A program made the translations under genes and the position numbers. A stretch of 64,000 bases of DNA from Gemmatimonadota bacterium. Its GTDB lineage: Bacteria > Gemmatimonadota > Gemmatimonadetes > Gemmatimonadales > Gemmatimonadaceae. Below, one piece after another: positions 2,262-19,252 of this stretch (the stretch's first letter is position 1; each line of letters starts with the position of its first letter). Location of the stretch: assembly GCA_016871915.1 (NCBI GenBank), contig VHBP01000004.1:1-64000 (forward strand), given 5' to 3'. The notes under the pieces were generated by a model, which ran no database searches, was not told the origin of the DNA, and worked only from the letters and a program-made list of their open reading frames with translations.

Positions 2262-2318
2262 ACCCCGGTGTTCTCACCTCCGTTAGAGTGCGGTCACCCC
2301 AACCCCGGAACAGCTCTC

Positions 2319-5300
2319 ATGCAGAGACGATTCCTCGCGGTGATGATAGGCTCACTGCTCCTGGCCTCGCCGATCCTGGCGCAGGAGCGATCGGTCACCG
2401 GCAAGGTAACTAGCGAGCAGGGAGCCCCCTTGCAGGCTGTGACCGTCGTCATCAAGGGCACCTCCACTGCCACGCAGACCACTCGCGACGGCGACTATTC
2501 TATCCGCGTTGCCGTCGGTCAGGTGCTCCAGTACCGTCTCATCGGCCATGCCCCGCAGGAGCGGATCGTGGGCTCCGAGGCACGCTTCGACGTCCAGCTC
2601 AAGCGCGTGGCGACGAACCTCGACGAGGTCGTCATCACAGCGCTGGGGCAGACGGCGCAACAGCGCAGCCTCGGCTATTCGCAGCAGGCAGTCGCGGGAC
2701 CAGAGATCGCGCAAACAACGCGTCAGAACTTCATCAACTCGCTGCAGGGACGCGTAGCGGGGGTGGAGGTGACGAGCTCGTCGGGGGTGCCGGGGGCCTC
2801 GTCCTCGATCACCATCCGTGGCGTGAGCTCGATCAGCTCGAGCAACCAGCCGCTGATCATCGTCGACGGGTTGCCGATCGACAACAAGACCCTGAACACG
2901 GGGGTGCTCGCCTCCGACGCCCCGGGGTCGACGACGGCGTTCAGCAACCGCCGTCTGGACTTCACGAACCGCGCCGCGGACATCAATCCCGAGGACATCG
3001 AGACCCTCGTGGTCCTCAAGGGCCCCGAGGCCTCCGCGCTGTACGGGATCGACGCAGCGAACGGTGCCATCGTGATCACCACCAAGCGTGGCACAGCGGG
3101 AACGGGCGGGCTCGAGTACAGCAACAACTTCCGTATAGAGAGCGTGCGGGCGCAGCCGAAGATCCAGCGGACCTTCGGGCCGACCTCGACCGACGGGACG
3201 GGGCTCCTCTCCTCGTTCTTCTACTTCGGCGCGCCGTACGCGGACACGACGACCTTCTACAACAACATCGACGGCTTCTTCCAGCCGGCGCTGACGCAGC
3301 GCCACGCCCTCGCGTTCAGCGGCGGGGCCCCCGACAACCGCGTGAACTATCGCGTGGCGGTGGCAGGGGACGATCAGCGCGGTGTGATCCCGAACTCGCT
3401 TTACCGGCGGATCAATCTCACCGGCGCCACGCAGGCGCAGGTGACGCGGTGGCTCAAGGCTGACCTCTCGATGCAATACACCTTCGCGAACAACGAGCAG
3501 TCGTACAAGGGCGACAATGGCCCGCTGATCGGCCTCCTTATCTGGCCGCAGACCGACGATGCGAAAGACTTCGTGACGCCCGCTGGGACGCGGCGTCGGA
3601 TCACGACCGCCTCGGCAGGGTCGGCGGAGACCGACAACCCCTACTTCAACGTCAACAAGAATCGGGTCCGATCCGACAACACTCGATTGATCGCGAACCT
3701 GGGGCTCGTCCTGACGCCGTTCTCGTGGGGGTCGCTCAAGACCAACATCGGCCTTGATACCTACAACAATGACAACCTGGTGCTCCGGCATCCGGAGAGT
3801 GTCTACGGCTTCAGCAACGCCGGAATCCTGGATGTCGCGGGGGACAACACCCGCAACCTGAACATCCAGACCCTGCTCAACGCCAACCGCCGTCAACTCA
3901 CGAAGGATTTCTCGCTGAGCGCCTTTGTCGGGAACCAGATCTCGCAGTTCCGATCGAACACCAGCGCCCTTCGCGGGGAAAGTTTCCTGGATCCGAACTT
4001 CGTCTCGGTGAACAACACCGCTACTCGCACCAGTCGGACGACGATCGCGGAGCGGCGGCTTCTGAGCGTCTTTGGGAGCGCGACGCTGAACTTTCGTGAC
4101 TATCTCTACGTCACGGCGACCGGCCGCAACGACTGGACCTCGACGATCCCGGTGGAGCGGAACTCATTCTTCTACCCCTCGATCTCGACGAGCTTCATCT
4201 TCTCGGACGCCTTCCCGGCGATCGGGAAGTTCATGACGGGGCGGCTTCGCGCCGGCTACGCCGAGGTCGGCAAGGACGCGCGGCCCTACGCCTACCGCCC
4301 CTCGCTCGAGTTCAAGACGACCTCTTACGGAGGCTACGGCTACGGCTTCACTGGCCCGAACCTCGACCTCCGCCCCGAATTTGCGCGGTCGTACGAGATC
4401 GGAACCGAGCTCGGCTTTTTCCAGAATCGGCTCGGCGTCGACATGGCGGTTTACCGAAAACAGACGAAGGACCAGATTGTGAACGACATCCGCGGGAGCT
4501 ACGGTACCGGCTTCATCTTATTCAATCTGAACGGGGCGGTAACCCGGAACGAGGGGGTCGAGGTCACCGTCCGCGGCACCGCGGTGCAGACGCGGAACTT
4601 CTCGTGGGACGTCCTGATGAACTTCGATCGGACGCGCGGTACGGTGCGCGAGCTTCCTAACGCCCTCCCCGAGTCCTACGTCTCCGACACCTGGCTCTAC
4701 GGGAACATTCGTAACGGGACTCAGCCAGGACTGTCCACTCGGTCACTCACAGGTCGGTACTACCTACGCAACACGAAAGGTGAGCTCCTGATCGATCCGA
4801 CCACCGGCTTACCACTGCGCCAGCCGTCAGCGTTCGTAGATGCGGGGTATGACCGCCAGCCTGACTTCATCATCGGTCTCACCAACACACTCCGCTACAA
4901 GAAAGCCTCCCTCAGCGTTCTCTTTGACATTCGGAAGGGAGGCGACGTCTTCAACGCCACGGAGCACTTCCTGACGACCCGCGGGCTCTCACCGCGGACG
5001 CTGGACCGTGAGACTCCGCGCGTGATCCCAGGCGTGCTGCGCGATGGGCGCGAGAACACCGCGACCCCAACCCGCAACACGATCGTCGTGATCCCGGCGG
5101 TGCAGACGGGCTTCTACACTGGGATGAGCGAGGAGCTCTTCATCGAGAAGGACATCAACTGGGTCCGACTCCGCGACGTGACTTTCCGCTACGAACTCCC
5201 GTCGGCGCTCTTCCGGTCGCGTGAGGCGAGCGTCTTCATCACCGGCAATGACCTCCTCCTCCTCACCAACTACTCGGGGATGGATCCCGTGGTGAACGGG

Positions 5301-5399
5301 AACACCGCTGCGGTGGGCGGCTCCGGCGCCGCCGGTGTCGACTACGGGAACTTCCCAATTCCGCGCGGGGTGAACTTCGGCCTCAAGGTGGCCTTCTGA
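2319..5399 (+). CDS. SusC/RagA-family TonB-linked outer membrane protein
   Basis: Signal peptide MQRRFLAVMIGSLLLASPILAQ, carboxypeptidase-regulatory-like N-domain (VTGKVTSEQGAPLQAVTVVIKGT), plug motif (ITIRGVSS...LIIVDGLPID), beta-barrel C-terminus. Confidence 0.95.
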   Translation: MQRRFLAVMIGSLLLASPILAQERSVTGKVTSEQGAPLQAVTVVIKGTSTATQTTRDGDYSIRVAVGQVLQYRLIGHAPQERIVGSEARFDVQLKRVATNLDEVVITALGQTAQQRSLGYSQQAVAGPEIAQTTRQNFINSLQGRVAGVEVTSSSGVPGASSSITIRGVSSISSSNQPLIIVDGLPIDNKTLNTGVLASDAPGSTTAFSNRRLDFTNRAADINPEDIETLVVLKGPEASALYGIDAANGAIVITTKRGTAGTGGLEYSNNFRIESVRAQPKIQRTFGPTSTDGTGLLSSFFYFGAPYADTTTFYNNIDGFFQPALTQRHALAFSGGAPDNRVNYRVAVAGDDQRGVIPNSLYRRINLTGATQAQVTRWLKADLSMQYTFANNEQSYKGDNGPLIGLLIWPQTDDAKDFVTPAGTRRRITTASAGSAETDNPYFNVNKNRVRSDNTRLIANLGLVLTPFSWGSLKTNIGLDTYNNDNLVLRHPESVYGFSNAGILDVAGDNTRNLNIQTLLNANRRQLTKDFSLSAFVGNQISQFRSNTSALRGESFLDPNFVSVNNTATRTSRTTIAERRLLSVFGSATLNFRDYLYVTATGRNDWTSTIPVERNSFFYPSISTSFIFSDAFPAIGKFMTGRLRAGYAEVGKDARPYAYRPSLEFKTTSYGGYGYGFTGPNLDLRPEFARSYEIGTELGFFQNRLGVDMAVYRKQTKDQIVNDIRGSYGTGFILFNLNGAVTRNEGVEVTVRGTAVQTRNFSWDVLMNFDRTRGTVRELPNALPESYVSDTWLYGNIRNGTQPGLSTRSLTGRYYLRNTKGELLIDPTTGLPLRQPSAFVDAGYDRQPDFIIGLTNTLRYKKASLSVLFDIRKGGDVFNATEHFLTTRGLSPRTLDRETPRVIPGVLRDGRENTATPTRNTIVVIPAVQTGFYTGMSEELFIEKDINWVRLRDVTFRYELPSALFRSREASVFITGNDLLLLTNYSGMDPVVNGNTAAVGGSGAAGVDYGNFPIPRGVNFGLKVAF

Positions 5400-7042
5400 T
5401 GCCGACCACTCCAATCACCCATCCGACGCGCCGCGCCGCGGCGCGCCCCTCCACGCTCACCGGACTTCGTATGCCTCGGATCCGTGCGCTCGTCGTCGCT
5501 GGCCTACTCGCCCTCACGGCATCGGCCTGCGACGACTTCCTTGATGTGAACGACAACCCGAACGCTCCACAAACGGTCTCGGCGAATCTCTATCTCTCGC
5601 CGATGCTGCACTGGCTCGTTAGCTCCCCCCAGTGGGACGGGCGGTTCGTTTCCCGCTACACCCAGATGTGGACCCTCCCCAGCGGGTCGACGACCCCGAG
5701 CACCTGGGACCGCATGGGGTACGACCCAGGCTCTGACAACGGCGGCCAGCAGTGGCGCGACGTGTATTGGAACCATGGTCAAAATCTCGTCGATATGATG
5801 AACAAGGCGCGGGCCGAAGAGCGCTGGGACCTTCTTGGCATCGGATACATCTTGAAGGCGTGGGGATGGCAGGTCCTCGCTGACCTGCATGGCGAGATCA
5901 TCGTGAAGGAGGCGATCAACTCTCGCACCTTCACCTTCAACTACGATTCGCAGGAGTACGCCTACAACGAGGCTCGGATTCTCCTTGACTCTGCCATTAC
6001 CCTGCTTCGTCGCACCGACGGTGCAGTCAACCAAGCGTACATTGCTCGAACTGACTTCATCTATGGCGGTGATCGGAATAAGTGGCGCAAGTTCGCCTTT
6101 GGACTCCGCGCGCTCCATCTAAACCATTACTCGAAGAAGGGGTCTTATAGCCCAGCGGCAGTGATCGCCGCGGTCGACTCCTCATTCTCGGGCAACGCGG
6201 ATGATGCGCTCCTCCTCTTCCCCAATACGGTCAACGAAGACCGAAACTTCTTTGGGCCGACGCGCAACAACATGGCGAGCTATCGGCAGACGCAGTTCGC
6301 GGTGGGCCTCGTGAACGGGACGGTCTTCTCGGGGGTGGTCGACCCCCGGCTGAACCGGATGTTCGTCCCATCGCCAGACTCGGTCTATCGGGGGCTCGAC
6401 ATCAACACCGGGGTCCTCCCGACAGCCACCCAGATCCCCCTGACGATCTGGCGAACGACCTCCCAATTGACGGCGGTCGGGCGGCCGGCGCTCTACCTCT
6501 TCGACGACAAGTCGAAGTTTCCGGCAATGACCTACGCCCAGCTCCAGTTTGTGAAAGCAGAAGCAGCGTTCAAGGCGGGAAACACGGCGATGGCCCGGGC
6601 GGCGTACCTGAATGGGATCGGCGCACACATTGACTTCGTCAATGCACGCAACGCCGAGATTGGGGCCTCGGTCCCGACGATCACGGCAGCGGAGCGGTCG
6701 GCCTTTCTTGCCAGCCCAGCGGTCGCGCCGGCAGCTGCGGACCTCAGGTTATGGCAGATCATGAGCCAAAAATATATCGCCCAGTGGGGGTGGGGGTTCA
6801 ACGAGGCTTGGATGGATCTACGCCGTTACAACTACACTGAGCTTGACCCGAGCGGTTCAAGACAGGTCTTCCCGGGCTTTGCGACCCCAACAAATCTCTA
6901 CGCCGACAATGGCGGAAAGCTTGTTCACCGCATTCGGCCGCGATTCAACTCCGAATATGTGTGGAACCAGGCTGGGCTCGACAAAATCGGCGGACTCGCG
7001 CTCGATTACCACACAAAGCCGCTCTGGATCACCCAACCATGA
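5399..7042 (+). CDS. SusD/RagB-family lipoprotein
   Basis: 547-aa ORF; lipobox-like LTASACDDFLDVNDNPNAP, directly downstream of SusC; SusD-like C-terminus. Confidence 0.92.
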   Translation: MPTTPITHPTRRAAARPSTLTGLRMPRIRALVVAGLLALTASACDDFLDVNDNPNAPQTVSANLYLSPMLHWLVSSPQWDGRFVSRYTQMWTLPSGSTTPSTWDRMGYDPGSDNGGQQWRDVYWNHGQNLVDMMNKARAEERWDLLGIGYILKAWGWQVLADLHGEIIVKEAINSRTFTFNYDSQEYAYNEARILLDSAITLLRRTDGAVNQAYIARTDFIYGGDRNKWRKFAFGLRALHLNHYSKKGSYSPAAVIAAVDSSFSGNADDALLLFPNTVNEDRNFFGPTRNNMASYRQTQFAVGLVNGTVFSGVVDPRLNRMFVPSPDSVYRGLDINTGVLPTATQIPLTIWRTTSQLTAVGRPALYLFDDKSKFPAMTYAQLQFVKAEAAFKAGNTAMARAAYLNGIGAHIDFVNARNAEIGASVPTITAAERSAFLASPAVAPAAADLRLWQIMSQKYIAQWGWGFNEAWMDLRRYNYTELDPSGSRQVFPGFATPTNLYADNGGKLVHRIRPRFNSEYVWNQAGLDKIGGLALDYHTKPLWITQP

Positions 7043-7863
7043 CCCTACCCATGACCACGCGGACCCTCACGGCATTTAGCGCCGCCCTCGTCCTCTCGGC
7101 CTGCGGGATCGACCTTGAGACCACGGCCGTGCAAGATATCACCGCCCCTGCTGACGGGGCGTTCGTGCGCTTCTTCAACTTTGGCGTGGGTGCCCCCAGC
7201 GTAAATTTTTACGCTGGGGACACGAAAGTGACTGCGATCTCCTCCGCGACAGGGGTCGAGGCCGCCTCCGGCGTCGCCTATGGCGGGGTGGGAAACGCCG
7301 GGCTCTACTCGAACCTCAAGCCAGGCCCTTACACCTTCGCGGGCCGGATCATCGGGGCAGCGGTCGACAATGGGCTTCCGATCTCGGCGATCACCGGATC
7401 ACTCACGGCCGGTAAGTACTACTCGGTCTATCAGAGCGGCCCGTACGACGCGGTCAACAAGACGGTCGGGGGATTCGTGGTCGAGGACCCGATCCCGGCA
7501 GCCTTCGATTACTCGCAGGCCTTCGTCCGATTCGTCCACGCGTCGGAGAACACGAACCCGATGACGCTGACGGTGACCAACACCGTCTCGACCGTGGCGT
7601 TCACCGTGGGCACGGCGATCGCCTACAAGGGGGCGAGCGGGTTCTCCACCGTGCCGGCGGGGACGTACAACATCGCCGGGGGCTGCGGGGCGACCTGCAA
7701 TTCGACGGGGGCCGGGAACGCCACGACCGCCGTCACCCGCACAGGGATCACCCTCTCTGCAGGGCGATACTACACGATCGCGCTCCGCGGCAACGTGACA
7801 CTCAACCCAGCGACCACCACGCTGGCGAACCGCCTCCAGTTCGATTTTTCGACGAATCGCTGA
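7039..7863 (+). CDS. DUF4397 domain-containing lipoprotein
   Basis: ATG overlaps the SusD stop (ATGA); lipobox-like VLSACG; FVRFFNFGVGAPSVNFYAGDTKV and FVRFVHAS motifs typical of DUF4397. Confidence 0.8.
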   Translation: MTLPMTTRTLTAFSAALVLSACGIDLETTAVQDITAPADGAFVRFFNFGVGAPSVNFYAGDTKVTAISSATGVEAASGVAYGGVGNAGLYSNLKPGPYTFAGRIIGAAVDNGLPISAITGSLTAGKYYSVYQSGPYDAVNKTVGGFVVEDPIPAAFDYSQAFVRFVHASENTNPMTLTVTNTVSTVAFTVGTAIAYKGASGFSTVPAGTYNIAGGCGATCNSTGAGNATTAVTRTGITLSAGRYYTIALRGNVTLNPATTTLANRLQFDFSTNR

Positions 7864-7885: not shown

Positions 7886-7919
7886 GACGGGGGGCGGTCC
7901 AAATGGACCGCCCCCCGTC
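7886..7919. terminator. Perfect inverted repeat between convergent operons, probable bidirectional terminator
   Basis: GACGGGGGGCGGTCC-AAAT-GGACCGCCCCCCGTC, 15-bp perfect stem. Confidence 0.75.
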
Positions 7920-7924
7920 TCGCA

Positions 7925-9574
7925 TCAGCTCCTTGGGGGGGGCGTTTCTGTCTCGGGAGCGGAGTGCAACCTCCGCGACAGCGAGGCGTGCAGTGCATCA
8001 CTCGCTCCGGCGATCAGGGTCGCAGCCTCACGCCGGATCTGCACAAGCCGCGCGCTAGTCGTCGCGCGCACCGTCGCGGTCCGCCGGACCCGCTGGAAGA
8101 CCGCGACCTCGCCGAACTGCTGGCCCGGACCCAGCGTGGCAACTTGTGTTTCGGTTCCACCCTCCCCCCGCTTGATCACCTCCACCTCACCCTCCTGGAT
8201 CAGGAAGAGGCTCGTGCCGACATCTCCTTCGCGCACGATGTCCTGCCCGGCATCGAAGAAGACTCGGGTGACGTTCATCGGGGCATCGGCACGCAGATTC
8301 AGGAAGTCGCGTCCGACGATCGCGGTCATAAGCCAGGAGTAGAGGACTCTGCACTTCTTCTCCCAGAGCGGGAGGTAAAGGAGCATGAAGGCGCGCCAGA
8401 CGAGCCAGGCAGCCGTGCCCGTCAACCGGATCGGCACTCCGTTCAGCTTCGCGATCGCACGCCGATGACCGACAGCGCAAGCATCACCCAACCCGGTGAA
8501 GCGGTACGGCGCCAGCCTAGCTTGGTCGAGCGTCCGACCGATGTTCCGACCGATGAGCTGGCCCACCGTCATCGCCCAGATGGCCAGTCCCGGTGCGGTC
8601 CCACCACCGGCGAGTGGCACCGCGGCGCAGTCACCGCCCGCCCAGACGTTCGTCCGCCCGTCGACGCGAGCGAATTGATCGGTGATAATCCGCTGCTGTG
8701 CGTCCCGTGGTACCTCAAGCCCCGCGATCACCGGCACCGCAGACATGCCAGCGCAGGACACAACCGTACGCGTCGGGATGCGCGTCCCGTCCGAAAGAAT
8801 CGCCTCTTCTGACGACGCGGAGGCGAGCTTGGTATGGAGTCTCACCTCGATCAGGGGATCTCGCGCGAAGGCCGACTCGACATACTGCGAGGTCCAGGGT
8901 TCCCGACTGCCAAGTTCTGGGAGTAGCTTAGGCGTCGCCGCTACCAAGACGATCCGGATCTCCCGTATCTCAATATTGGGGAAGTGCGCTCGTGCGACGA
9001 GCGGGAGGAACTCGCTCAGCTCCCCTGCCACCTCGCACCCCGCGAAGCTCCCGCCGACCACCACGAAGGTGAGGAGGCGGCGACGCTCGACGGGATCGGG
9101 CTCCATGTCCGCGAGCTCGAGCATCTCGACGAATTGGTTCCGCGCCGCAAAGCAAGCGGCATAGGATTTGAGGCGCAGCGCGTGCTCCGCGAGGCCCGGG
9201 AAGCGCCCAAGGTGTTCCGTCATACCGAGGGACAAGACGAGGTGATCATATGTCAACTCGAGCGTGCGGCCATCCAGTTGCCGGGCCACCGTGACGCGAC
9301 GGCCATCGAGATCGATCGATTGCACCTCCGCATTGATGAAGTCTCCGGGGGCGAAGAGCCGGCGTGCCGGACTCAGCATATCGGTCGGCTGCAGGGTGCC
9401 CGTAAGCATCTCCGGCACGAGCCCGTGGAAGCACTGAAAGTTCTCATTACTCACTACGGTGAGCCGCACACGGCCAGCACGGAGGCGGGATCGCAGTACG
9501 CGCGCGAGGTTGATGGCGACATAGCCACCGCCGAGGCACAAGACATGCGGCACCGTAGGCGACACGGTTCGCAT
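7925..9574 (-). CDS. NDH-2-like FAD-dependent oxidoreductase fused to a C-terminal cyclic-nucleotide-binding-like domain
   Basis: VLCLGGGYVAINLARVL dinucleotide-binding motif, FVVVGGSFAGCEVAGEL second Rossmann motif, C-terminal cNMP domain (VFFDAGQDIVREGDVGTSLFLIQEGEVEVI...FGEVAVFQRVRRTATV). Start at 9574 overlaps the upstream stop as TGATG. Confidence 0.9.
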   Translation of the reverse strand: MRTVSPTVPHVLCLGGGYVAINLARVLRSRLRAGRVRLTVVSNENFQCFHGLVPEMLTGTLQPTDMLSPARRLFAPGDFINAEVQSIDLDGRRVTVARQLDGRTLELTYDHLVLSLGMTEHLGRFPGLAEHALRLKSYAACFAARNQFVEMLELADMEPDPVERRRLLTFVVVGGSFAGCEVAGELSEFLPLVARAHFPNIEIREIRIVLVAATPKLLPELGSREPWTSQYVESAFARDPLIEVRLHTKLASASSEEAILSDGTRIPTRTVVSCAGMSAVPVIAGLEVPRDAQQRIITDQFARVDGRTNVWAGGDCAAVPLAGGGTAPGLAIWAMTVGQLIGRNIGRTLDQARLAPYRFTGLGDACAVGHRRAIAKLNGVPIRLTGTAAWLVWRAFMLLYLPLWEKKCRVLYSWLMTAIVGRDFLNLRADAPMNVTRVFFDAGQDIVREGDVGTSLFLIQEGEVEVIKRGEGGTETQVATLGPGQQFGEVAVFQRVRRTATVRATTSARLVQIRREAATLIAGASDALHASLSRRLHSAPETETPPPRS

Positions 9575-10059
9575 CACCCGGCCGCGTAATGCCACGCCGC
9601 CACGTGATTCGCAACGTGCATGCTATGTGCCCGCTCGTAGGCCGCCTTGGAGAGTCGCCCGTAGGCAAAGTGCGGCTGCAATGGCCCAGTCCACCGGTCG
9701 AAGGCCTCGATACGATCCCGGATCAAAGCGAGCGCTTCATCCCAGGTGCGGGGGGGCGGCTCGGGGTCGCCGGGAATCTCTTGGCGCAGGTCATGGCGCA
9801 TCTGTCCCATGGCATCGAAAAGTCCGAAGACGAGCGGCCCGATCGTCATCCGGAAGAGCCGCGGCTTAAGCGCAGGGAAGCCCTGCAGGGAGTGCGCGAT
9901 GCTCCGCGCGCAATGGTCCAGTGTATGCGGCACATCCCACCCCGGCGTGAGGACCGCGTCGCGCGCGGCATCGAGGCGCTCAAGTTCTCGCCGCACCTCG
10001 TCAAATGAATGGAGGCGCAGCGGTCGAGGAGCCAAATGGTGATGATGCAGGTCGCCCAT
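9574..10059 (-). CDS. DUF1569 domain-containing protein (DinB-like fold expected)
   Basis: 161 aa; HTLDHCARSIAHSLQGFPALKPRLFRMTIGPLVFGLF matches the DUF1569 pattern; start overlaps the peroxidase stop as TGATG. Confidence 0.75.
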   Translation of the reverse strand: MGDLHHHHLAPRPLRLHSFDEVRRELERLDAARDAVLTPGWDVPHTLDHCARSIAHSLQGFPALKPRLFRMTIGPLVFGLFDAMGQMRHDLRQEIPGDPEPPPRTWDEALALIRDRIEAFDRWTGPLQPHFAYGRLSKAAYERAHSMHVANHVAAWHYAAG

Positions 10060-11822
10060 CAGCTCGCTCTCGCTGTGTTCCGCGACATCGCGCCTCGACC
10101 CTCTCCGACCTTCCCCCAGGGTGCGAAGGCGTTGGCGACGCCGCGCAACGACGCGCGGAGATCGGGGTAGTGTCGGATGAGGACGTCGGTCATCGTGTTG
10201 TTCTGGATCCAGTCGAGCCCGGCCTGCGTGTAGACCTCGCGGGTGAAGTCCCCTGACAGGAAACGGTCAGCGTTGAGCCGGCGCGAGGCCATCAGGACGA
10301 AGACTCGGAACGCCGTATCACTGAAGCCGAAGCCCTCAGGCAACAGTTCACAGAGATTACCGACGAGGAGATCGACCTCCTCGACGTCGCGGTAGATCAC
10401 CGCGAGCTCGGCCGCCAGCGTGGCGTCACCGCCAGTCAGATCGAGGAACGTCGTGACGGGGCGCATGTGAAACGCCCGACGAAAGGCGTTGTAGCGGGGG
10501 ATTCCGCGCTCCCGGTCCCGCAGGATGTCCACCGTCCCCATATCGAGGTGCTTGCCGTCTGGGAGCACGATATTGCGAAGGAAATCGGGATAGTTGTGGA
10601 TGGTGATGGCACCCGGGTGCGCGATGCCGAAGGAATAGAAGAGGTCTTGGAACGAGAGCCCATGGGCCATAGGCTGACGCGCCCGCTCGAAGACGATCTC
10701 GTCCATCGTGAGCGTGGTGGCAAGTCGTCCGGTGTCCAAGGACCGGAATTCCACCGTGTCAGGGAGCAGCGAGTGCAGGCGATAGACCGCGACGAACTCT
10801 TCCGTCAAGGAGTAGGGCGCCCCATGCATCTCCGTCGGCGACCCCGGGATCCCGGCGATCGCCTCATTCTCTGAGATGCGGCCCCAGTAGCGCCGAAGCG
10901 TTTCACCGGCGACCCCCCACCAATTCGTCTTCATTCCGAGCTGCACCGCCGGATGCGCCAGGATCCCGGGCGTCCACTCGAGGGTGTGGATCTTCGCGGT
11001 GAGCGCACAATTCACGAGACGCGCAGTGTCGAAGAGCTGGTCGCTGGTCCAGTCGGGATAATGCCGTCGGAGGTGATCGCAGATCGCGTTGTGTTCAAGG
11101 GCGAAGAGGGTATGCAGCAATTCCAGGCCGGTCCACCAATTATCGCTGAAGCCGGTGATTGGGATGCCACGATGGTCGCGCGGCAGGAAGTGATCGACGT
11201 ACCCGTCCTCGACAAAGAGCTTGCCGTCACGCGCCTTATTGCGAAGGGCCGCGGTCTCTACCTCAGAGGACCCGTAGATCTGCGATCCATCCCACCATGG
11301 GGTGCTTTTGTTCTGATAGGCCGGGTGGGTGCGATCGATCTCCCCGAGGGGGGCGTCGGGCAGGGTCCGGTGGACGTGCATCCGACCGTCCGACCAGCCA
11401 TCGCCCTCGCGCAGGGGGACCTCGATGTGCCGATCATCGTCATCATAGTGCCCGAACCAGTCGTGCACCATGAACTGGATCCAGGCGGCCGCAAGCAAGT
11501 TGAGCGAGGTCGCCGGCTTGAATTCCTGCCGCCGCAGCAGGCGCTCGCTGATCAGGCGCGGGTTCGGCGTGAGCAACGCCTCAGAGCTGGGGGCCTCGGT
11601 GAGATGCCGCGGGACATTGCGACCGAAGCGCATGCCGGCACACCCCATGAGCGGCCGCTCGAGATCATTGAACTTGCCGTCGGAGTGCCGCACGGCGAGG
11701 TACTTCGAGTGATCCATCGGACACCGGGCGGCGTCCCCGTATGGCTCGAGCGACGGATAGGTGTCGATCAGATTGTACGCCCGCAGCTGATCCCGGAGGG
11801 CCACCAGATTGAGGAGGCCCAT
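10059..11822 (-). CDS. Animal-type heme peroxidase / fatty-acid alpha-dioxygenase-like protein (longest uninterrupted part of the frame)
   Basis: 587 aa; AAWIQFMVHDWFGH (distal His), WWDGSQIYGS, LLHTLFALEHNAICDHLR and EWTPGILAHP motifs of the peroxidase/cyclooxygenase superfamily. Frame extends upstream to ATG 11915 but with an in-frame TGA at 11886-11888. Confidence 0.88.
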   Translation of the reverse strand: MGLLNLVALRDQLRAYNLIDTYPSLEPYGDAARCPMDHSKYLAVRHSDGKFNDLERPLMGCAGMRFGRNVPRHLTEAPSSEALLTPNPRLISERLLRRQEFKPATSLNLLAAAWIQFMVHDWFGHYDDDDRHIEVPLREGDGWSDGRMHVHRTLPDAPLGEIDRTHPAYQNKSTPWWDGSQIYGSSEVETAALRNKARDGKLFVEDGYVDHFLPRDHRGIPITGFSDNWWTGLELLHTLFALEHNAICDHLRRHYPDWTSDQLFDTARLVNCALTAKIHTLEWTPGILAHPAVQLGMKTNWWGVAGETLRRYWGRISENEAIAGIPGSPTEMHGAPYSLTEEFVAVYRLHSLLPDTVEFRSLDTGRLATTLTMDEIVFERARQPMAHGLSFQDLFYSFGIAHPGAITIHNYPDFLRNIVLPDGKHLDMGTVDILRDRERGIPRYNAFRRAFHMRPVTTFLDLTGGDATLAAELAVIYRDVEEVDLLVGNLCELLPEGFGFSDTAFRVFVLMASRRLNADRFLSGDFTREVYTQAGLDWIQNNTMTDVLIRHYPDLRASLRGVANAFAPWGKVGEGRGAMSRNTARAS

Positions 11823-11911
11823 CCACTTCGGGAGTCGGTGCCAGGGAACGACCCGATTGAGCGCTGAGAACCCACCGATGAGGAGTCACTTGCCGAGTGA
11901 GAGCCGATAGG

Positions 11912-13711
11912 TCATTGGACCCCTGAGTGAGTGGAGAGCCGCTGCGACCACCACGGACCGAGCGTCGCCATGGCATGCTCGAAACCGATCGCTTCGGCCT
12001 CTGACAGGCGCGCGAAGTCAAAGAGCCCAATCGCCCCGACGGGCGGTGCGAGTACGACGTCAGCCACGGCGTGCGCTCGCTCCGCCTGCTGTGCCCCGCC
12101 AAGCAGGACGGAGCCGAGGATGGTATCGACAAGTGTGGGAAAGTACGGTGCTGCGCGCCCAGGGCGCAAACGATCGCGGAGGACCTGCCATCCCGTCGGC
12201 GTCTCGGGATAGCCCGAGGAGCGCATCGCATGGGCAGAGACATCCGCCGCGATAACCACGCCCGAGCGGAGGCCGTCGGCGGGGAGATTGTTGACCACCG
12301 CCCCATCGACGTGGAGCGATCCATCAGGATGGGCGAAGGCCGGTTCGATGCCGGGGATCGCCATGCTCGCCATGCACCCGTGGCGCACCAGTCCCTGTCG
12401 ATGCAGATGCATCCGCGCCGCCGTGAGGTTTGCGCTGCAAGTGAAGGCGTCGATCCAACAGTCCTCGAATTCGAGATCCCCAAAATTAGCGCGGAGCATC
12501 TCATCGGCTTCCCTGGCACGCACCAACCCGATGGTCGGGATCGTGTACGCCCGATGCGGGGCGATGCGTTGCCAACCATCCCGGTGGCGCTCTGCCATCT
12601 CATCCAAGGTCATCCCGGCGGCCCACTGAGCGGCAATGAGGGAGCCCATGCTGGTGCCCCCGACCTCATCGATCGGGATGCCTAGAGTCTGCATCGCTCG
12701 CAACAAACCGAGGTGCGCGAGCCCCCGCGCGCCACCACCGCTGAAGGCCACACCTATGCTGATGCCGAGGAGCTGACGAGCGACTCGCGCCCAATCCGAA
12801 GCGCGCCCCCCCCGGATATGGTGGCGTCGGTCGTAGGGTCGTCGCGCCATCCAGCGTGCCGTCCCCCGGACCGGGGACCGCACCTCTTCATGGAGCATGA
12901 GGAGCTCCTGACGGCAGCCGCCGAAGGACGTCGTCACGCGATCCGGAATCTCAGCGAGCCGTGCCGAAGGGAGTACTTCCAATATGAGATCGGCTTGCCG
13001 GAGGCAGGCGGCGTCCCAGCTCGGATGGATGGAAGACGCGAGGCAGAGCACGACCGTATGTCGCTCTTCGACCTCATGGAGCCATCGGGCGAGGGCGAGC
13101 GCCTGGCCGGTGTCCGCTTGACCCTCACCCAACAAATCGCCGAGTGCCGCCACGGCCCGCGCGTGATCGACCACAGCGACATCGCCAGTGGCGCGGAGCG
13201 CATTCGTGAGCCCCGTCGCCGCCGGCATCAGGTCGACCCCCGGCACCGCCCCACGGAGCACGACGACCGAAGGCCGACGCATCCCGGTCCGAGGTGGGGG
13301 CGGCGAGGCCGAGAGCAGAGTGGCGAGATGTCGGCTAATCCCGATGGCGAGGGCCGGTTGCCCCAGCAGGAGCGCATCAAAGCGCGCGCGCCGGATTCGC
13401 CCCAACTCCGAGTCGCGGATCGCGGTCACAGTTGCCGCGCGGCGCTGCCCGGTGAGGAGCGCGAATTCACCAACCAGATCCCCACGGGCGAGTTCGCGCA
13501 CGAGGACGGGACCGTCCGGACCCTCACGCTCGACGCGGAGTCGACCACTCAAGACGACGAAGCAATCGTCGCCCTCGGTACCCTGTCCAAAGAGCACGTG
13601 GCCGCCCTTGAGCAATTCAGGTTCGACGCTCTCCGCCACGCGATCGATTACGTCGGCGGTCAATCCGGCGAAGACACGACTGCGGCTTAGGGCGTCTGCT
13701 ATGTCGCGCAT
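11912..13711 (-). CDS. Patatin-like phospholipase with N-terminal cyclic-nucleotide-binding-like domain (NTE-like architecture)
   Basis: N-terminal cNMP fold (LLKGGHVLFGQGTEGDDCFVVLSGRLRV...VGEFALLTGQRRAATV) and patatin motifs SGGGARG and GTSMGS, DGAVVNNLP. Confidence 0.92.
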   Translation of the reverse strand: MRDIADALSRSRVFAGLTADVIDRVAESVEPELLKGGHVLFGQGTEGDDCFVVLSGRLRVEREGPDGPVLVRELARGDLVGEFALLTGQRRAATVTAIRDSELGRIRRARFDALLLGQPALAIGISRHLATLLSASPPPPRTGMRRPSVVVLRGAVPGVDLMPAATGLTNALRATGDVAVVDHARAVAALGDLLGEGQADTGQALALARWLHEVEERHTVVLCLASSIHPSWDAACLRQADLILEVLPSARLAEIPDRVTTSFGGCRQELLMLHEEVRSPVRGTARWMARRPYDRRHHIRGGRASDWARVARQLLGISIGVAFSGGGARGLAHLGLLRAMQTLGIPIDEVGGTSMGSLIAAQWAAGMTLDEMAERHRDGWQRIAPHRAYTIPTIGLVRAREADEMLRANFGDLEFEDCWIDAFTCSANLTAARMHLHRQGLVRHGCMASMAIPGIEPAFAHPDGSLHVDGAVVNNLPADGLRSGVVIAADVSAHAMRSSGYPETPTGWQVLRDRLRPGRAAPYFPTLVDTILGSVLLGGAQQAERAHAVADVVLAPPVGAIGLFDFARLSEAEAIGFEHAMATLGPWWSQRLSTHSGVQ

Positions 13712-13811
13712 AATATCTCTTGGAGAGACAGATTCTTACGATGCACCCCTTGAAACAGCAAGGGAGCCCCGCCCCGGGTAAGACCGGCGCGCGATAGAAG
13801 GGGCGGGACGA

Positions 13812-16088
13812 TCAGCGTGCCGCGACCCGCAGGGGCAACGCGCGGAGGCGCTGGCCCGTGAGGACAAAGAGCGCATTCGCCACCGCTGGAGCCACCGGAG
13901 GCAACGCGGTCTCTCCCATCCCCGTCGGGACCTCGGTGCTGGGCACAATGTGCACGTCAACCACAGGCGCCTCCGTGATCCGCAGCAACGGGTAGGTATC
14001 GAAGTCCGAGGTGGTCACGCGCCCGTCGGCGATCCGAATCTCGCCATGGAGCGCGGCGGAGAGCCCATCGAGCACCGCCCCCTCCACCTGCTGCCGGATC
14101 CCGCGGGGGTGCACCGCGAGGCCGCAGTCCACCGCACAGGTCACGCGATGCACACGGATCCCCTGCCGCGCGTCGAGGGAGACCTCGGCGACCTGCGCCA
14201 CGAGGGAGCCGAAGCTCCAGTGCAGCGCAACCCCACGCGCCCGCGGCCGACCGTCAGGGCCTGCCGCTAGTGCGGTGCCCCACCCCGCGCGTTCCGCCGC
14301 CAGTGAGAGCACCCGCGCCGCGCGGGGATGTTCGCGCAGATGCGACAAACGGAAGGCCAGGGGATCCTGCTGCGCGGCATGCGCTAACTCATCGATGAAC
14401 GACTCGAAGAAGAAGGCCTGATGCGAATGCCCCACCGAACGCCATGACCCCACGGGGACGGGGAGCTCGACGTCGGCATGAGCCGAGCGGAGCGCGGGGA
14501 TCTCGTAGGGCTGATCCCAGATCCCCTCGGCGGTGGTGCGATCCGGGCCGAAGGAGGTGATCCCGATCCCTACACGCTTGCTGAGTGCACGGAAGGCGGA
14601 CTGGCTGGCCGAATGCGCGGTGAGGGCGACGATACGCCCCTTCGCGTCGAGGCCCCCCTCGAGGCGGGAGGCGGCGGCAGGGCGATACATGTCGAAGCGG
14701 AGATCGTCCTCACGCGACCAGATCACCTGTACCGGGGTGCCGGGGAGCGCCTTCGCGACCGCCGCGGCCTGCGCCACATAATCGACCTCGAGACGGCGCC
14801 CGAAGCCGCCGCCCAGGAGCGATTGATGCAGCGTCACCTGATGGGGATCGAGATCGAGGACGCGCGCCACGGCGTCGCGGGCAAAGCGGGGGACCTGCGA
14901 GCCGCACCAGAGCTCGGCCGAGTCGCCCTCGGTGCGCACGGTGGCGTTCATCGGTTCCATCGTGGCGTGCGCGAGGTAGGGGGCCTCGTAGCGCGCCTCG
15001 ATCACCTTCGCGGCGGTCTGGAGCACCTCGACCGGGTTCCCGACCTTCCGGAAGGGGAGCCCGTCATTCGTCTCGGCGACTTCACGCAGCGTGCGCTGAA
15101 TCGCCGCGGAGTCGAGCGCGGCGTGCGGCGAGGGGGACCACTCGATCTTCAGCGCGGCGAGCGCCTGCTTCGCCTGCCACCAGGTCGCCGCGACGACCGC
15201 GACCCCTGGGGGATCGCCATGCGTGCTCCCCTCGAGCGGGACGACCGCCTTCACCCCGGGGAGGGCGAGCGCCGCATTCTTCTCGAACTTCACCGGCCGA
15301 CTCCCGAGCGCCGGCGGCATCGCGACCGCGGCCTGCAGCATCCCCGGCAGGGCGAGATCGATCCCGAAGAGCGGCGCGCCGACCGACTTGGCGCGCGAAT
15401 CGAGACGGGGCACGTCGCGACCGATGATCGTGAAGCCCGCGGGATCCTTGAGCGCGACCTTGGCCGGCTGCTGCGCCGCCGCCTCCTCGATGATCTCGCC
15501 ATAGCCGATGCTGCGATCGCCGAAGATCACACGCCCCCGTTCGGCGCGGCACTGATCAGGAGGCACCCCGAAGCGCGCCGCCGCGGCCGCGATGAGCGCC
15601 ATGCGCGCCGTCGCCCCCGCCTCGCGCGCGATCGCCCAGACATCGCGCACGCTCGAGGAGCCCCCCGTCATCAGGACGCCGATCTCGCGCGCCGTCTTCG
15701 CGGTGAACCAGTGCAGCGTGCGACCGAGCGCCGAGGTCGCCTGATCGGGGTGGAGCGGAAGCCCGTCGGCAAGCGCGGCGATGTTCCCGTAGATCGTGTC
15801 GATCGGGGCGTGCACCACCTGCACCGACGCGAAGGGGACCTCGAGCTCCTCGGCCACCAACATCGCGAGCGCGGTGTGGATCCCCTGCCCCATCTCCGCC
15901 TTGGGGGAGATCACCGTCACCGTGCCATCGGGGGCGATCGCGAGCCACCCGTTCAGCTGGACGGTGCCGTCAGGGAGATCGGCGGCGTGCTTGGCGCGCA
16001 GGCGCTGCCGCGGCGGGACGAGGGACCATCCGACGACGAGGGCGCCAGTGGCCCCGAGGCCCAAGAGGAGGAAGGTGCGGCGCCGCAT
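13812..16088 (-). CDS. Xanthine dehydrogenase-family molybdopterin-binding subunit (isoquinoline 1-oxidoreductase beta-like, IorB type)
   Basis: 758 aa; Tat-like leader MRRRTFLLLGLG; AIAPDGTVTVISPKAEMGQGIHTALAMLVAEELEVPF; LGGGFGRRLEVDYVAQAA. Confidence 0.9.
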   Translation of the reverse strand: MRRRTFLLLGLGATGALVVGWSLVPPRQRLRAKHAADLPDGTVQLNGWLAIAPDGTVTVISPKAEMGQGIHTALAMLVAEELEVPFASVQVVHAPIDTIYGNIAALADGLPLHPDQATSALGRTLHWFTAKTAREIGVLMTGGSSSVRDVWAIAREAGATARMALIAAAAARFGVPPDQCRAERGRVIFGDRSIGYGEIIEEAAAQQPAKVALKDPAGFTIIGRDVPRLDSRAKSVGAPLFGIDLALPGMLQAAVAMPPALGSRPVKFEKNAALALPGVKAVVPLEGSTHGDPPGVAVVAATWWQAKQALAALKIEWSPSPHAALDSAAIQRTLREVAETNDGLPFRKVGNPVEVLQTAAKVIEARYEAPYLAHATMEPMNATVRTEGDSAELWCGSQVPRFARDAVARVLDLDPHQVTLHQSLLGGGFGRRLEVDYVAQAAAVAKALPGTPVQVIWSREDDLRFDMYRPAAASRLEGGLDAKGRIVALTAHSASQSAFRALSKRVGIGITSFGPDRTTAEGIWDQPYEIPALRSAHADVELPVPVGSWRSVGHSHQAFFFESFIDELAHAAQQDPLAFRLSHLREHPRAARVLSLAAERAGWGTALAAGPDGRPRARGVALHWSFGSLVAQVAEVSLDARQGIRVHRVTCAVDCGLAVHPRGIRQQVEGAVLDGLSAALHGEIRIADGRVTTSDFDTYPLLRITEAPVVDVHIVPSTEVPTGMGETALPPVAPAVANALFVLTGQRLRALPLRVAAR

Positions 16089-16115
16089 CAGGTAGAAGAT
16101 GCCACGCCGACGCCG

Positions 16116-17996
16116 TCAGCGCACGCCCGTCGCGATCCCGTCCTCCAACCGCCGCGTCGTCGCGATCAACCGATCGCTCAGCGTCCGCAGCAACCCGATC
16201 GCGAGGCGCGGGTGCTGCGTCAGCAGCTCGAGGAGCACCTCGCCGGGGAGGAGGAGGGTTCGCACCGGGGTGACCGCGACCACATCGGCGGTCGCGGCGG
16301 TGGCATTGAGGGTGGAGAGCTCGCCGATCGCAGCGGGGCGCGTGAGGCGCGCGACCACCGCCTGCCCTGCCGCACGATCCTGACGGACCTCGACCTCTCC
16401 CTCCATCAGGAAACGGATCCCATCGGCCGGCGCGCCCTGCGCGACGAGCCGCGTCCCGGCCGGAAGGGACTCCTCGCGCACGCGCTCGGCGACATGCACC
16501 AGCACGGCGGGATCGACTTCGAGGAAGGCCTGCGTCTCCTTGAGGAAGAGGACGCGATCGATGAGTGAGGTCATGTGCGAGTCGAGAGGGGGAAGATGGC
16601 CGGCGTCGGCGCCGAGCTGATGGGCGGTGAGGCGGACCCAGCGATCGTCGTGGCGTGTGAGGCGATCGACGAGGGCGCGACCCGCGCCGACCGTGGCGGG
16701 ACGCATCGGCCGGTCGTCACCAAGGGCGCGACGCCACGCCTGCACGGTGTGCAGGTCGTGTTCGAGCGCGGCGCGCAGGTGCGCCGCGGCGGGTAGCGAA
16801 GCCGATGCGAGCGCGGCGCGGTCCAGTGCCTCACGACGCCGCCAGCGGCGGCGGACGCGTGACACGGGCCACCGGCGATCGAGGGTGAGGGTGGGGCCGC
16901 GCCGGTGCACGAGCTGCTCGAGCACCTGCTCGCGGCGTGCATCACGCCCGCGGAGCCATCGCGCGAGCGTGGTCGTTTCGCGGGCCGGTGCCTGCGTGGC
17001 CACCTGCGCGGCGAGCGCCGCCGCCTCGGCGATCTGCCTCGCCTCGGTCCAGGCGCGCACCGTCGGTACCAGCGAGGCGCCCCCTTCGGCAAGTTGGCGC
17101 ATCGCGAGCTCCGCGATCGCGGGATCGCGGGCGGCCATCGCGAGGATGATCTCCGTCGTCGCTCCGTCGATGTTCCCGCCGCGAGTGCGCCACCCCTGCA
17201 TGGCGTGCCACATGCGCAGCGGGCGCAGACTCAACACCTCGACGAGCCCGGCGATCGAGGTGGCCGTGGCATCGATGAGGCGCTCGACTGCGGCGCGCTC
17301 GCGATCGTCCTGCGCATGCAACAGGAGCGCGGTCTGGAACCAGGAGGCCTCGCGCGCGTGGAGGAGGATCCGCTGCCCCATCGCCATCGTGAGACGCCGC
17401 GCGAGCTTGTTCCCCAGATAGAAGACGGGGTGGAATGCCGCGAGCACGGTGTCCTGGATGTGCGGGAGACTCTCCCAGGCGATCGCGTTGATGCGCAGGA
17501 AGTCGCGATAGCGCACCACGGGCACCCCCGCCTGGCTCCCGCGCAGGACGCTCGTGCGCTCGAGATGCGCAAGGTCGCCGGCGTAGCGAGAGGCGCCCAA
17601 GGTGACGAAGGCGAGGTCGTAGTTGATGTGCGCATTCATCCCGAGGAGCATCGCCTCGAGCACCGAGGCGCGCCCCGACTCGCTCGCCGCGAAGGCGTGA
17701 CGCCAGGCGCCGCACTGCGCGGGATCGCGACGCTCCCACCGTGCCTTCTGCTCGAGATAGACCTCGACGAAGCGACAGCACATGTCGATCGCCCAGGCGG
17801 GATCCTCGAAGCGATCGGCGCGCACGCCGGCGAGGACCTCACGCGAGAAGGTGAGGTAGGTGAGCTGGAAGACGGCGCGGCGATCGCCGCTGGCCTGCAT
17901 CGCGGCCAGGTCGCGCGCCATCGTCACGATGTGGCCTTCGAAGATCCCGATGTCGTAGCCCCCCGCCGGTGGGGCCTGTTGCCCGATGAGCGTCAT
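16116..17996 (-). CDS. DUF5995-family protein with C-terminal cyclic-nucleotide-binding-like domain
   Basis: N-terminal LTYLTFSREVL...GMNAHINYDLAFVTL typical of DUF5995; C-terminal RLVAQGAPADGIRFLMEGEVEVRQ...IGELSTLNATAATADV cNMP-like fold. Confidence 0.75.
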   Translation of the reverse strand: MTLIGQQAPPAGGYDIGIFEGHIVTMARDLAAMQASGDRRAVFQLTYLTFSREVLAGVRADRFEDPAWAIDMCCRFVEVYLEQKARWERRDPAQCGAWRHAFAASESGRASVLEAMLLGMNAHINYDLAFVTLGASRYAGDLAHLERTSVLRGSQAGVPVVRYRDFLRINAIAWESLPHIQDTVLAAFHPVFYLGNKLARRLTMAMGQRILLHAREASWFQTALLLHAQDDRERAAVERLIDATATSIAGLVEVLSLRPLRMWHAMQGWRTRGGNIDGATTEIILAMAARDPAIAELAMRQLAEGGASLVPTVRAWTEARQIAEAAALAAQVATQAPARETTTLARWLRGRDARREQVLEQLVHRRGPTLTLDRRWPVSRVRRRWRRREALDRAALASASLPAAAHLRAALEHDLHTVQAWRRALGDDRPMRPATVGAGRALVDRLTRHDDRWVRLTAHQLGADAGHLPPLDSHMTSLIDRVLFLKETQAFLEVDPAVLVHVAERVREESLPAGTRLVAQGAPADGIRFLMEGEVEVRQDRAAGQAVVARLTRPAAIGELSTLNATAATADVVAVTPVRTLLLPGEVLLELLTQHPRLAIGLLRTLSDRLIATTRRLEDGIATGVR

Positions 17997-18006
17997 GCGC
18001 GCGGGA

Positions 18007-19086
18007 TCAGGTGGTGAGGGCGCGCGCGGCGTCGGCGATCACCTGTAGCGCGTGCTCGACCCCTTGGACGGTGTGCTCCCCCATGTGACCGACGCGAAGC
18101 GTGGTCGGCGCGAGCGGTCCATACCCCGTGCCGAGCGTCACGCCGCGCTCGCGCACCGCGGCCCAGAGTCGCTCGACGCCGATCCCGGTGGGGATGGTGA
18201 GCACACTCACGGTGGGGGCGCGGATCCCCTTGGGGGCGAGGATCCCGATGCCGAGTGCGCCGCCCTCGCCTGACTCGACCCAACGCTCGACAGCGTGCTG
18301 CATCGCGTGATGGCGAGCCCAGCGGACATCCATCGTCTCGTCGACGATCCGATCGAGGGCGACGTCGAGGGCGTAGAAGAGGGAGACCGCGGGAGTGGCG
18401 GGCGTATTGTGCTGCGCCGCGAAGGTGTCGAGCTCGATGAGATCGAGGTAGCGACCGCGCGCGGGTTGTGCGGCGGCCTGCGCGAGGAAGGACTCACTCG
18501 CGACGGCGAAGCTCAGCCCTGGGGGGGCGGCGATCGCCTTCTGCGAGCCACTCAGGACATAGTCGAGCGCCCAGGCATCGGTCTCGAGCGCGGCGCCACC
18601 CAGTCCGGTGACCGAATCGATGAGTGCGACGGCGCCAAAGCGGTGCGCGAGGGCGGTGATCGCCTGCGGGTCCTGCAGCACACCGGTGGTGGTCTCAGAG
18701 TGCGCACCGGTGACGACGGCGAAGCGGCCGGTGCGGAGCGCGTCCTCCACCTGCTCGAGGGGGACGGCCTCACCCCAAGGGACGCTGATCTCCTCGACCT
18801 CACGGCCACAACCCCGCGCGATGGCGGAGTAGCGCCCGGAGAAGGCGCCGTTCACGAGCGAGAGGACGCGGCCCGCCGGCGCGGCGCGCATCCCGGCTTC
18901 CATCATCCCTGTCGCACTCGCGGTGTGGATGTAGACGGGGCGCGTGGTGCGGAAGACCGTCTGCAGCCGCGCCGCGCACCGCGCATAGAGCGCCTCGAAG
19001 GCCGCGCTCCGATGCGGGATCATCGGCTGGGTCATCGCCGCGAGGACCTCGGGGCGGACTTCGGTGGGGCCGGGGACAAGGAACAT
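18007..19086 (-). CDS. Class V aminotransferase (alanine-glyoxylate / serine-pyruvate aminotransferase family)
   Basis: MFLVPGPTEVRPEVLAAMTQPMIPHRSAAF...; PLP lysine region DYVLSGSQKAIAAPPGLSF. Confidence 0.9.
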   Translation of the reverse strand: MFLVPGPTEVRPEVLAAMTQPMIPHRSAAFEALYARCAARLQTVFRTTRPVYIHTASATGMMEAGMRAAPAGRVLSLVNGAFSGRYSAIARGCGREVEEISVPWGEAVPLEQVEDALRTGRFAVVTGAHSETTTGVLQDPQAITALAHRFGAVALIDSVTGLGGAALETDAWALDYVLSGSQKAIAAPPGLSFAVASESFLAQAAAQPARGRYLDLIELDTFAAQHNTPATPAVSLFYALDVALDRIVDETMDVRWARHHAMQHAVERWVESGEGGALGIGILAPKGIRAPTVSVLTIPTGIGVERLWAAVRERGVTLGTGYGPLAPTTLRVGHMGEHTVQGVEHALQVIADAARALTT

Positions 19087-19090
19087 ATCG

Positions 19091-19195
19091 AAAGCTTAAG
19101 GCTGAAGGCTGAAAGCTGAAAGCCAACGGCCCGGTTTCTAGCCTTCAGCTTCTAGCCTCCAGCTTCTAGCCTCCAGCTTCTAGCCTCCAGCTTCC
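19091..19195. repeat. Heptamer tandem repeats in inverted arrangement (site A)
   Basis: Left arm AAAGCTTAAGGCTGAAGGCTGAAAGCTGAAAGCC, right arm TTTCTAGCCTTCAGCTTCTAGCCTCCAGCTTCTAGCCTCCAGCTTC; copies at 26505-26599 and 28594-28675. Confidence 0.85.
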
Positions 19196-19206
19196 CGAGC
19201 GCGCCG

Positions 19207-19248
19207 CCTGTCACCTGCCCCCTGTCACCTGCCCCCTGTCACCTGCCC
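19207..19248. repeat. Three exact tandem copies of a 14-bp unit CCTGTCACCTGCCC
   Basis: Direct reading; two 7-nt half-units per repeat. Confidence 0.9.
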
Positions 19249-19252
19249 CCTG

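Follow-up and report, generated by a model that had tools for sequence, protein, structure and literature searches.

A candidate four-gene cassette for cyclic-nucleotide-responsive fatty-acid alpha-oxidation in a Gemmatimonadota genome

What is encoded by a run of seven minus-strand genes, three of whose products carry a cyclic-nucleotide-binding (CNB; Pfam cNMP) domain? The question is raised by the window analyzed here, a stretch of 64,000 nucleotides of contig VHBP01000004.1 from a Gemmatimonadota bacterium. An earlier interpretation, the sequence-only reading, had proposed a single operon in which lipid release, fatty-acid dioxygenation and electron disposal are jointly gated by a signal. 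The whole 2.07-Mb genome encodes five proteins with a cNMP domain and three of them fall within these 11 kb, which is beyond chance. We find that the conserved unit comprises four genes (7925-13711), encoding in order of transcription a cNMP-patatin, a heme dioxygenase, a DUF1569 protein and a flavoprotein resembling type II NADH dehydrogenase (NDH-2) with its own cNMP domain; two of the three cNMP proteins thus belong to it. With slightly better than even confidence, we read this cassette as a horizontally mobile module for the on-demand, cyclic-nucleotide-responsive alpha-oxidation of membrane-derived fatty acids. The chemistry that had been proposed is largely supported; the seven-gene operon is not.

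All seven open reading frames (ORFs) are present where they had been placed and with the domains assigned to them (ORF list, Pfam; Table 1). The two TGATG junctions are also correct, and this overlap puts the likely start of the NDH-2-like protein at ATG 9574. A common strand and short gaps speak for one operon in which the DUF5995-cNMP protein, the molybdenum hydroxylase and the aminotransferase are functional members. So does the congener G292: a homologue of the hydroxylase, an enzyme that could oxidize aldehydes, is encoded there upstream of a cNMP-patatin, at a distance of 3.2 kb that takes in a dicarboxylate symporter gene. Yet we consider such an operon very improbable. The G+C content of third codon positions (GC3) is about 0.87 in the three upstream genes and 0.75-0.82 in the patatin, peroxidase, DUF1569 and NDH-2-cNMP genes. 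Contig C6 of the congener G028 aligns with the window as a single block of 91% nucleotide identity (7954-13711) that ends exactly at the patatin start. Other genes occupy the 3.9 kb upstream of the patatin in G028, and the aminotransferase/DUF5995/hydroxylase region matches a different contig, C63, the end of which falls inside the hydroxylase. In a more distant copy of the cassette (L032) none of the three upstream genes (0/3) is found beside it. The hydroxylase, which is not next to the cassette in G028 or L032 but is near a cNMP-patatin in G292, is an uncertain member. A stable hairpin directly follows the last stop codon of the NDH-2-like gene and is probably the terminator of the cassette. 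Within the break at 13712-13811 a weak terminator hairpin is possible, though the fold found there is not significant (z -1.05). The GC3 split, the end of the G028 alignment and the hairpin at 7886-7919 together make a transcription unit of four genes the most likely arrangement.

Table 1. Features of the cassette and its surroundings, in window positions.
Feature	Position	Strand	Basis and remarks
cNMP-NTE_Ploop-patatin phospholipase, 599 aa, cassette gene 1	11912-13711	-	Pfam, alignment of relatives, dN/dS
CNB sensor of the patatin	13367-13612	-	Phosphate-binding cassette (PBC) motif VGEFALLTGQRRAATV; retains Glu and Arg and is PKA-like
Predicted fatty-acid alpha-dioxygenase (An_peroxidase), 587 aa as readable	10059-11822	-	Pfam, PDB matches, active site, dN/dS
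Original start of the alpha-dioxygenase gene (its ATG overlaps the stop of the patatin) and the in-frame TGA, codon 10	11886-11915	-	Comparison with relatives, which read through
DUF1569 protein, 161 aa, probable DinB/YfiT clan	9574-10059	-	Pfam; clan from PMC4520260
NDH-2-like flavoprotein with C-terminal CNB (Pyr_redox_2+NDH2_C+cNMP)	7925-9595	-	Pfam, PDB
CNB sensor of the NDH-2-like protein	8024-8263	-	PBC motif FGEVAVFQRVRRTATV; retains Glu and Arg, with the Thr of PKG
Hairpin, 15-bp stem, directly after the last stop	7886-7919	-	-47 kcal/mol, z -5.9; probable terminator
Intergenic gap separating the cassette from the three genes upstream	13712-13811	-	Congener alignment ends here
Molybdenum hydroxylase large subunit, IorB-like (MoCoBD)	13812-16088	-	Pfam; outside the conserved cassette
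DUF5995+cNMP (CNB) protein	16116-17996	-	Pfam; neighbour, outside the cassette
Class V aminotransferase (Aminotran_5)	18007-19086	-	Pfam; neighbour, outside the cassette

The central enzyme of the cassette, listed earlier as a peroxidase like the fatty-acid dioxygenases, is to judge by its sequence a fatty-acid alpha-dioxygenase with all catalytic residues conserved. In a search of solved structures it matches the alpha-dioxygenases of Arabidopsis and rice (4hhr/4kvj) with E about 4e-108, compared with about 1e-15 for COX-1 and 1e-5 to 1e-8 for MPO. A test set in advance asked whether it sides with lipid peroxidases; by its PDB matches and active site it does, and specifically with the alpha-dioxygenases. 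Numbered from ATG 11822, the distal H120, catalytic Y347 and proximal H350 are present, flanked by F343 and F508, as are the carboxylate-binding H279 and R515 and the alpha-carbon-positioning T284. The equivalents of rice H157, H311, T316, F375, Y379, H382, F552 and R559, whose functional roles have been described (PMC8720084), are identical in 81-84 of 84 homologues; the sole substitutions among the eight are T284S (rice T316) in three sequences, with one gap at F508. Enzymes of this type convert free fatty acids to 2(R)-hydroperoxides and thence to Cn-1 aldehydes and CO2, and the plant examples attach to membranes by N-terminal amphipathic helices (PMC9305512). The window protein resembles the plant enzymes and the cyanobacterial CalDOX and LepDOX in sequence and in its catalytic and carboxylate-binding residues (PMC8720084). 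It differs in that the five bacterial phyla named there do not include Gemmatimonadota, that its gene is a cassette member between those of a sensor-fused lipase and an NDH-2-like protein, and that its product is a predicted one.

The patatin may supply the substrate. It has a GGTSMG nucleophile motif and a DGA dyad, with S354 and D469 invariant in an alignment with its relatives, in keeping with its earlier assignment as a phospholipase. It shares its CNB, P-loop and patatin domains and the catalytic Ser and Asp with the neuropathy target esterase (NTE) family (PNPLA6/7 and the bacterial cNMP-patatins), differing in its single CNB domain and in its linkage to genes of fatty-acid oxygenation. 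Most other cNMP-patatins found in the phylum of the window carry a pair of CNB domains, and such neighbours are missing there. In the DUF1569 protein His49, His148 and His152, candidate ligands of a three-His metal site, are invariant in seven sequences. The family has been placed in the DinB/YfiT clan (PMC4520260); a fold search with the model of the window protein returned no significant match, and the top ones (OvsA, YfiT-like) were insignificant. The NDH-2-like protein has the FAD and NADH Rossmann motifs and the NDH2_C membrane region (Pfam, PDB), and its best PDB matches are NDH-2s (9mqy, YjlD and yeast Ndi1). It departs from them in its C-terminal CNB domain, in a quinone-site motif that is not recognized and in belonging to a clade apart from other NDH-2-CNB fusions. 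An AlphaFold model of this protein was too poor (pLDDT 60) and was set aside. Across the four cassette genes the ratio of nonsynonymous to synonymous substitution rates (dN/dS) is 0.05-0.28, with 0.19-0.28 for the patatin, a sign of purifying selection.

Could the sensor domains bind a cyclic nucleotide? Three CAP-like sensors had been claimed, and two of them look ligand-competent from their residues. The patatin and the NDH-2-like protein both retain the Glu and Arg by which the cyclic phosphate is held, as do those sister loci (described below) that were checked. Aligned with the regulatory domains of PKA and PKG, the patatin sensor reads GEFALLTGQRRAATV, with an Ala following the Arg as in PKA, and the NDH-2 sensor reads GEVAVFQRVRRTATV, with a Thr in that place as in PKG. 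The ligand preferences of PKA and PKG are no more than a hint to those of the two sensors. The third sensor, that of the DUF5995 protein, has lost the phosphate-binding Arg, which is replaced by Ala in a PBC that reads GELSTLNATAATADV.

How general is the cassette? The four-gene order recurs intact in the congener G028/L031 (91% nucleotide identity) and near-intact in L032 and L033; the L033 copy ends inside the dioxygenase at a contig end. The metagenome-assembled genome (MAG) behind L031, from Gemmatimonadetes, is the nearest named relative of the window genome among those compared. L032 and L033 come from one phylum sample, distinct from the phylum of the window, and their dioxygenases are 87% identical to that of the window. 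Within the genus an An_peroxidase gene is found only in the window genome (G000) and G028 among the members sampled. Elsewhere the cassette recurs in pieces beside distant alpha-dioxygenases: a cNMP-patatin in a Geminicoccaceae MAG (L102), DUF1569 in gammaproteobacterial MAGs (L095, L096, L098), an NDH-2-cNMP together with a P450 in L129 (G289), a P450 with an old yellow enzyme (OYE) in a Verrucomicrobiota MAG (L034), and an OYE with a RoxA-like cytochrome c in Halomonas and Acidobacteria. On the dioxygenase tree the groups with these associations lie apart, and several of the associations therefore probably arose separately. The conserved neighbourhood that had been expected is thus borne out for the lipase, dioxygenase and NDH-2, which stay together and recur in pieces across phyla, and not for the DUF5995-cNMP and aminotransferase genes, which lie elsewhere in the congener.

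Some features of the distant loci stand on their own. The recurrent gene of ~450 aa beside the Acidobacteria and Halomonas dioxygenases was at first guessed to encode a P450; this was wrong, and it is an Oxidored_FMN protein (OYE). In Halomonas and its relatives (L045-L062, L074, L086) the alpha-dioxygenase has one cytochrome c upstream and is followed by a gene of ~302 aa, Oxidored_FMN and the RoxA-like cytochrome c; both cytochromes may be related to the di-heme oleate dioxygenases of Pseudomonas. In Alcanivorax, Pseudomonas and Marinobacter (L064-L110) an alpha-dioxygenase frame of ~915-950 aa stands beside an 876-aa STAND-type LuxR regulator at 25 loci.

A sister arrangement was found by searching with the NDH-2-cNMP. 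In G088 (L176:3986-9225) a three-gene operon consists entirely of CNB fusions: a CoA-acylating aldehyde dehydrogenase (CNB domain N-terminal), an NTE-type cNMP-patatin (49% identity) and an NDH-2-cNMP (48%). No An_peroxidase match was obtained in that genome. The cNMP-aldehyde dehydrogenase also adjoins a cNMP-patatin in G362 and follows an NDH-2-cNMP in G183. In a tree of NDH-2 sequences the proteins of the cassette and sister loci (n = 7) form one clade, with a support of 100 in the Shimodaira-Hasegawa-like approximate likelihood-ratio test (SH-aLRT), and eleven other NDH-2-CNB fusions fall outside it. All seven members adjoin an alpha-dioxygenase, a cNMP-patatin or a cNMP-aldehyde dehydrogenase. 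Ten further NDH-2-CNB loci, retrieved from a second phylum (L238-L247), lie in other contexts, as do double-CNB patatins from the phylum of the window. This makes the linkage specific to the clade of seven.

How might the four proteins work together? We propose that the sensor of the patatin, on binding a cyclic nucleotide or some other CNB-fold ligand, would release the lipase, which would then free fatty acids from (lyso)phospholipids. The alpha-dioxygenase would add O2 at C2, giving 2(R)-hydroperoxy acids and from these Cn-1 aldehydes and CO2. The DUF1569 protein, as a putative member of the DinB metalloenzyme clan, may handle the reactive product, whether aldehyde or hydroperoxide, and the CNB-fused flavoprotein, responding to the same signal, would send electrons from NAD(P)H to the membrane. 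In the sister loci the CNB-fused CoA-acylating aldehyde dehydrogenase, or a P450, could fill the downstream place. The four genes would presumably be co-transcribed, and an oxylipin may be among the products.

Several observations, set out in this and the next two paragraphs, weigh against that scheme. The first concerns the dioxygenase start. The patatin and dioxygenase genes had been joined by an ATGA overlap, and ATG 11915 is indeed the start of the dioxygenase in G028. In the window this frame runs for nine codons and then meets TGA at 11888-11886; the position is CGA in G028, and L032 reads through too. It does not open again until ATG 11822, which leaves a usable junction of about 90 bp here. 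What is lost includes a WHRLP stretch found in several relatives; the intact N-terminal membrane-binding part, present in G028 and L032, is lacking from this assembly. The TGA is either a nonsense change in the strain or a wrong consensus in the MAG. It would fit a foreign cassette decaying in this strain, its dioxygenase already inactivated, and a recent acquisition is indicated by its lower GC3 and by its scattered occurrence within the genus. We think decay unlikely, however. Over the rest of the gene dN/dS is 0.05-0.08, and the value of 0.05 against G028 indicates strong purifying selection on the remaining, intact frame since the two separated; a consensus error would also account for the TGA. 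The residues that correspond to L53 and R57 of the rice enzyme and line the substrate channel lie downstream of ATG 11822, so that restart there is possible.

The second concerns the signal. No cyclase is found among the genes at 7.9-19 kb and none beside the cassette; the genome does have one class III cyclase (PF00211), on another contig, in which FHA and GAF-like parts can be seen by eye, and this speaks for the scheme. The CNB domains might therefore be structural, serving membrane placement or dimerization, or might sense something other than a cNMP, in which case the four genes would form a cassette for lipid alpha-oxidation or repair under no joint gating. To our knowledge many bacterial CNB folds bind no cNMP, and the adjacent DUF5995 domain is one without the Arg. 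The catalytic domain of human NTE is active without its CNB region, which affects localization (PMC9319352), so that CNB domains need not gate a patatin. We nevertheless judge this reading rather unlikely, because both cassette proteins and the sister loci checked retain the PBC Glu and Arg, and because the domain is carried independently by three enzymes of the module family that are unrelated to one another (patatin, aldehyde dehydrogenase and NDH-2). A CNB domain on a patatin also resembles the effectors of Pycsar/CBASS-type abortive infection, in which a phage-induced cyclic nucleotide would unleash a membrane-destroying phospholipase, and there are weak PADLOC matches to the PycTIR CNB and to phospholipase effectors. 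We give such a defence function scarcely any credence, as these matches are at the domain level and span only the CNB and a generic patatin stretch, the patatin is of the NTE type with an NTE P-loop domain, the other three genes are metabolic, and the neighbourhood lacks the cyclase.

The remaining difficulties lie downstream of the oxygenation. The usual quinone-site motif of NDH-2, A-Q-x-x-x-Q, is not seen in the NDH-2-like protein, where the region reads APGLAIWAMTVG, and its electron acceptor is therefore uncertain. NDH-2-CNB fusions also stand alone in the second phylum, where the ten loci belong to a wider family of sensor-fused NDH-2s. Loci with the dioxygenase lack the aldehyde dehydrogenase and those with the aldehyde dehydrogenase lack the dioxygenase, so that the full pathway is never found in one locus.

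One of the five CNB proteins of the genome, encoded at a second locus outside the window, is itself an oxygenase. At G000:C8:11622-14747 (+) (L258:8623-11748) lies a gene for a protein of 1041 aa in which a pair of N-terminal CNB domains is joined to a lipoxygenase domain, with a match to PDB 5ek8 at 5e-136; the usual lipoxygenase metal ligands, H-x4-H, H-x3-N and the C-terminal Ile, are kept, as judged by eye. A P450 gene (L258:7207-8595, -) is divergent from it at about 27 bp and is followed by an alpha/beta hydrolase (6115-7173, -). A search of the 16 other genomes in the genus did not recover the CNB-lipoxygenase. This locus supports an oxylipin theme in the strain, and not a linkage to the cassette. 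In the congener G028 a sulfate permease with STAS and CNB domains (G028:C24; L259:8976-11075) is another direct CNB fusion. Around the cassette itself, window positions 2268-7863 hold genes for a TonB-dependent receptor, a SusD-like protein and a DUF4397 protein, with a GC content of about 0.63, below the rest of the window; and upstream of the aminotransferase (19089-19250) there are short direct tandem repeats with units like GGGGGCAGGTGACAG and AGCTGGAGGCTAGA.

Each of the gene families is already known. The oleate diol synthase and oxylipin signalling of Pseudomonas aeruginosa (PMC5155153) is likewise a bacterial system of oxygenated fatty acids, but it uses periplasmic di-heme enzymes of the cytochrome-c-peroxidase type, and includes neither a sensor-fused lipase nor an alpha-dioxygenase. 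Plant alpha-oxidation and the fungal dioxygenase-P450 fusions (PMC13049297) share the succession of a dioxygenase and a handler of the aldehyde or hydroperoxide, as with the P450s of L129 and L034; here the system is bacterial, the genes are separate, and CNB sensors are found on the lipase, dehydrogenase and flavoprotein. A search of the literature, mainly without subscription papers, returned no description of bacterial NDH-2-CNB, CNB-patatin or CNB-lipoxygenase systems, or of the cassette.

Bacterial alpha-dioxygenases are known as biocatalysts. This locus offers a source of substrate in the sensor-fused lipase, partners that recur across phyla and a control signal that can be tested, and it suggests that bacteria may switch on fatty-acid oxidation by a small signalling molecule. 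More tentatively, the separate CNB fusions on lipase, NDH-2-like flavoprotein, CoA-acylating aldehyde dehydrogenase and lipoxygenase could reflect a modular, cyclic-nucleotide-controlled oxylipin metabolism, with the messenger acting at the enzymes and not at transcription; we hold this as a possibility, and a doubtful one. If the gating is true, the cassette would be a bacterial parallel of the phospholipase-oxygenase cascades, with second-messenger control exerted post-translationally.

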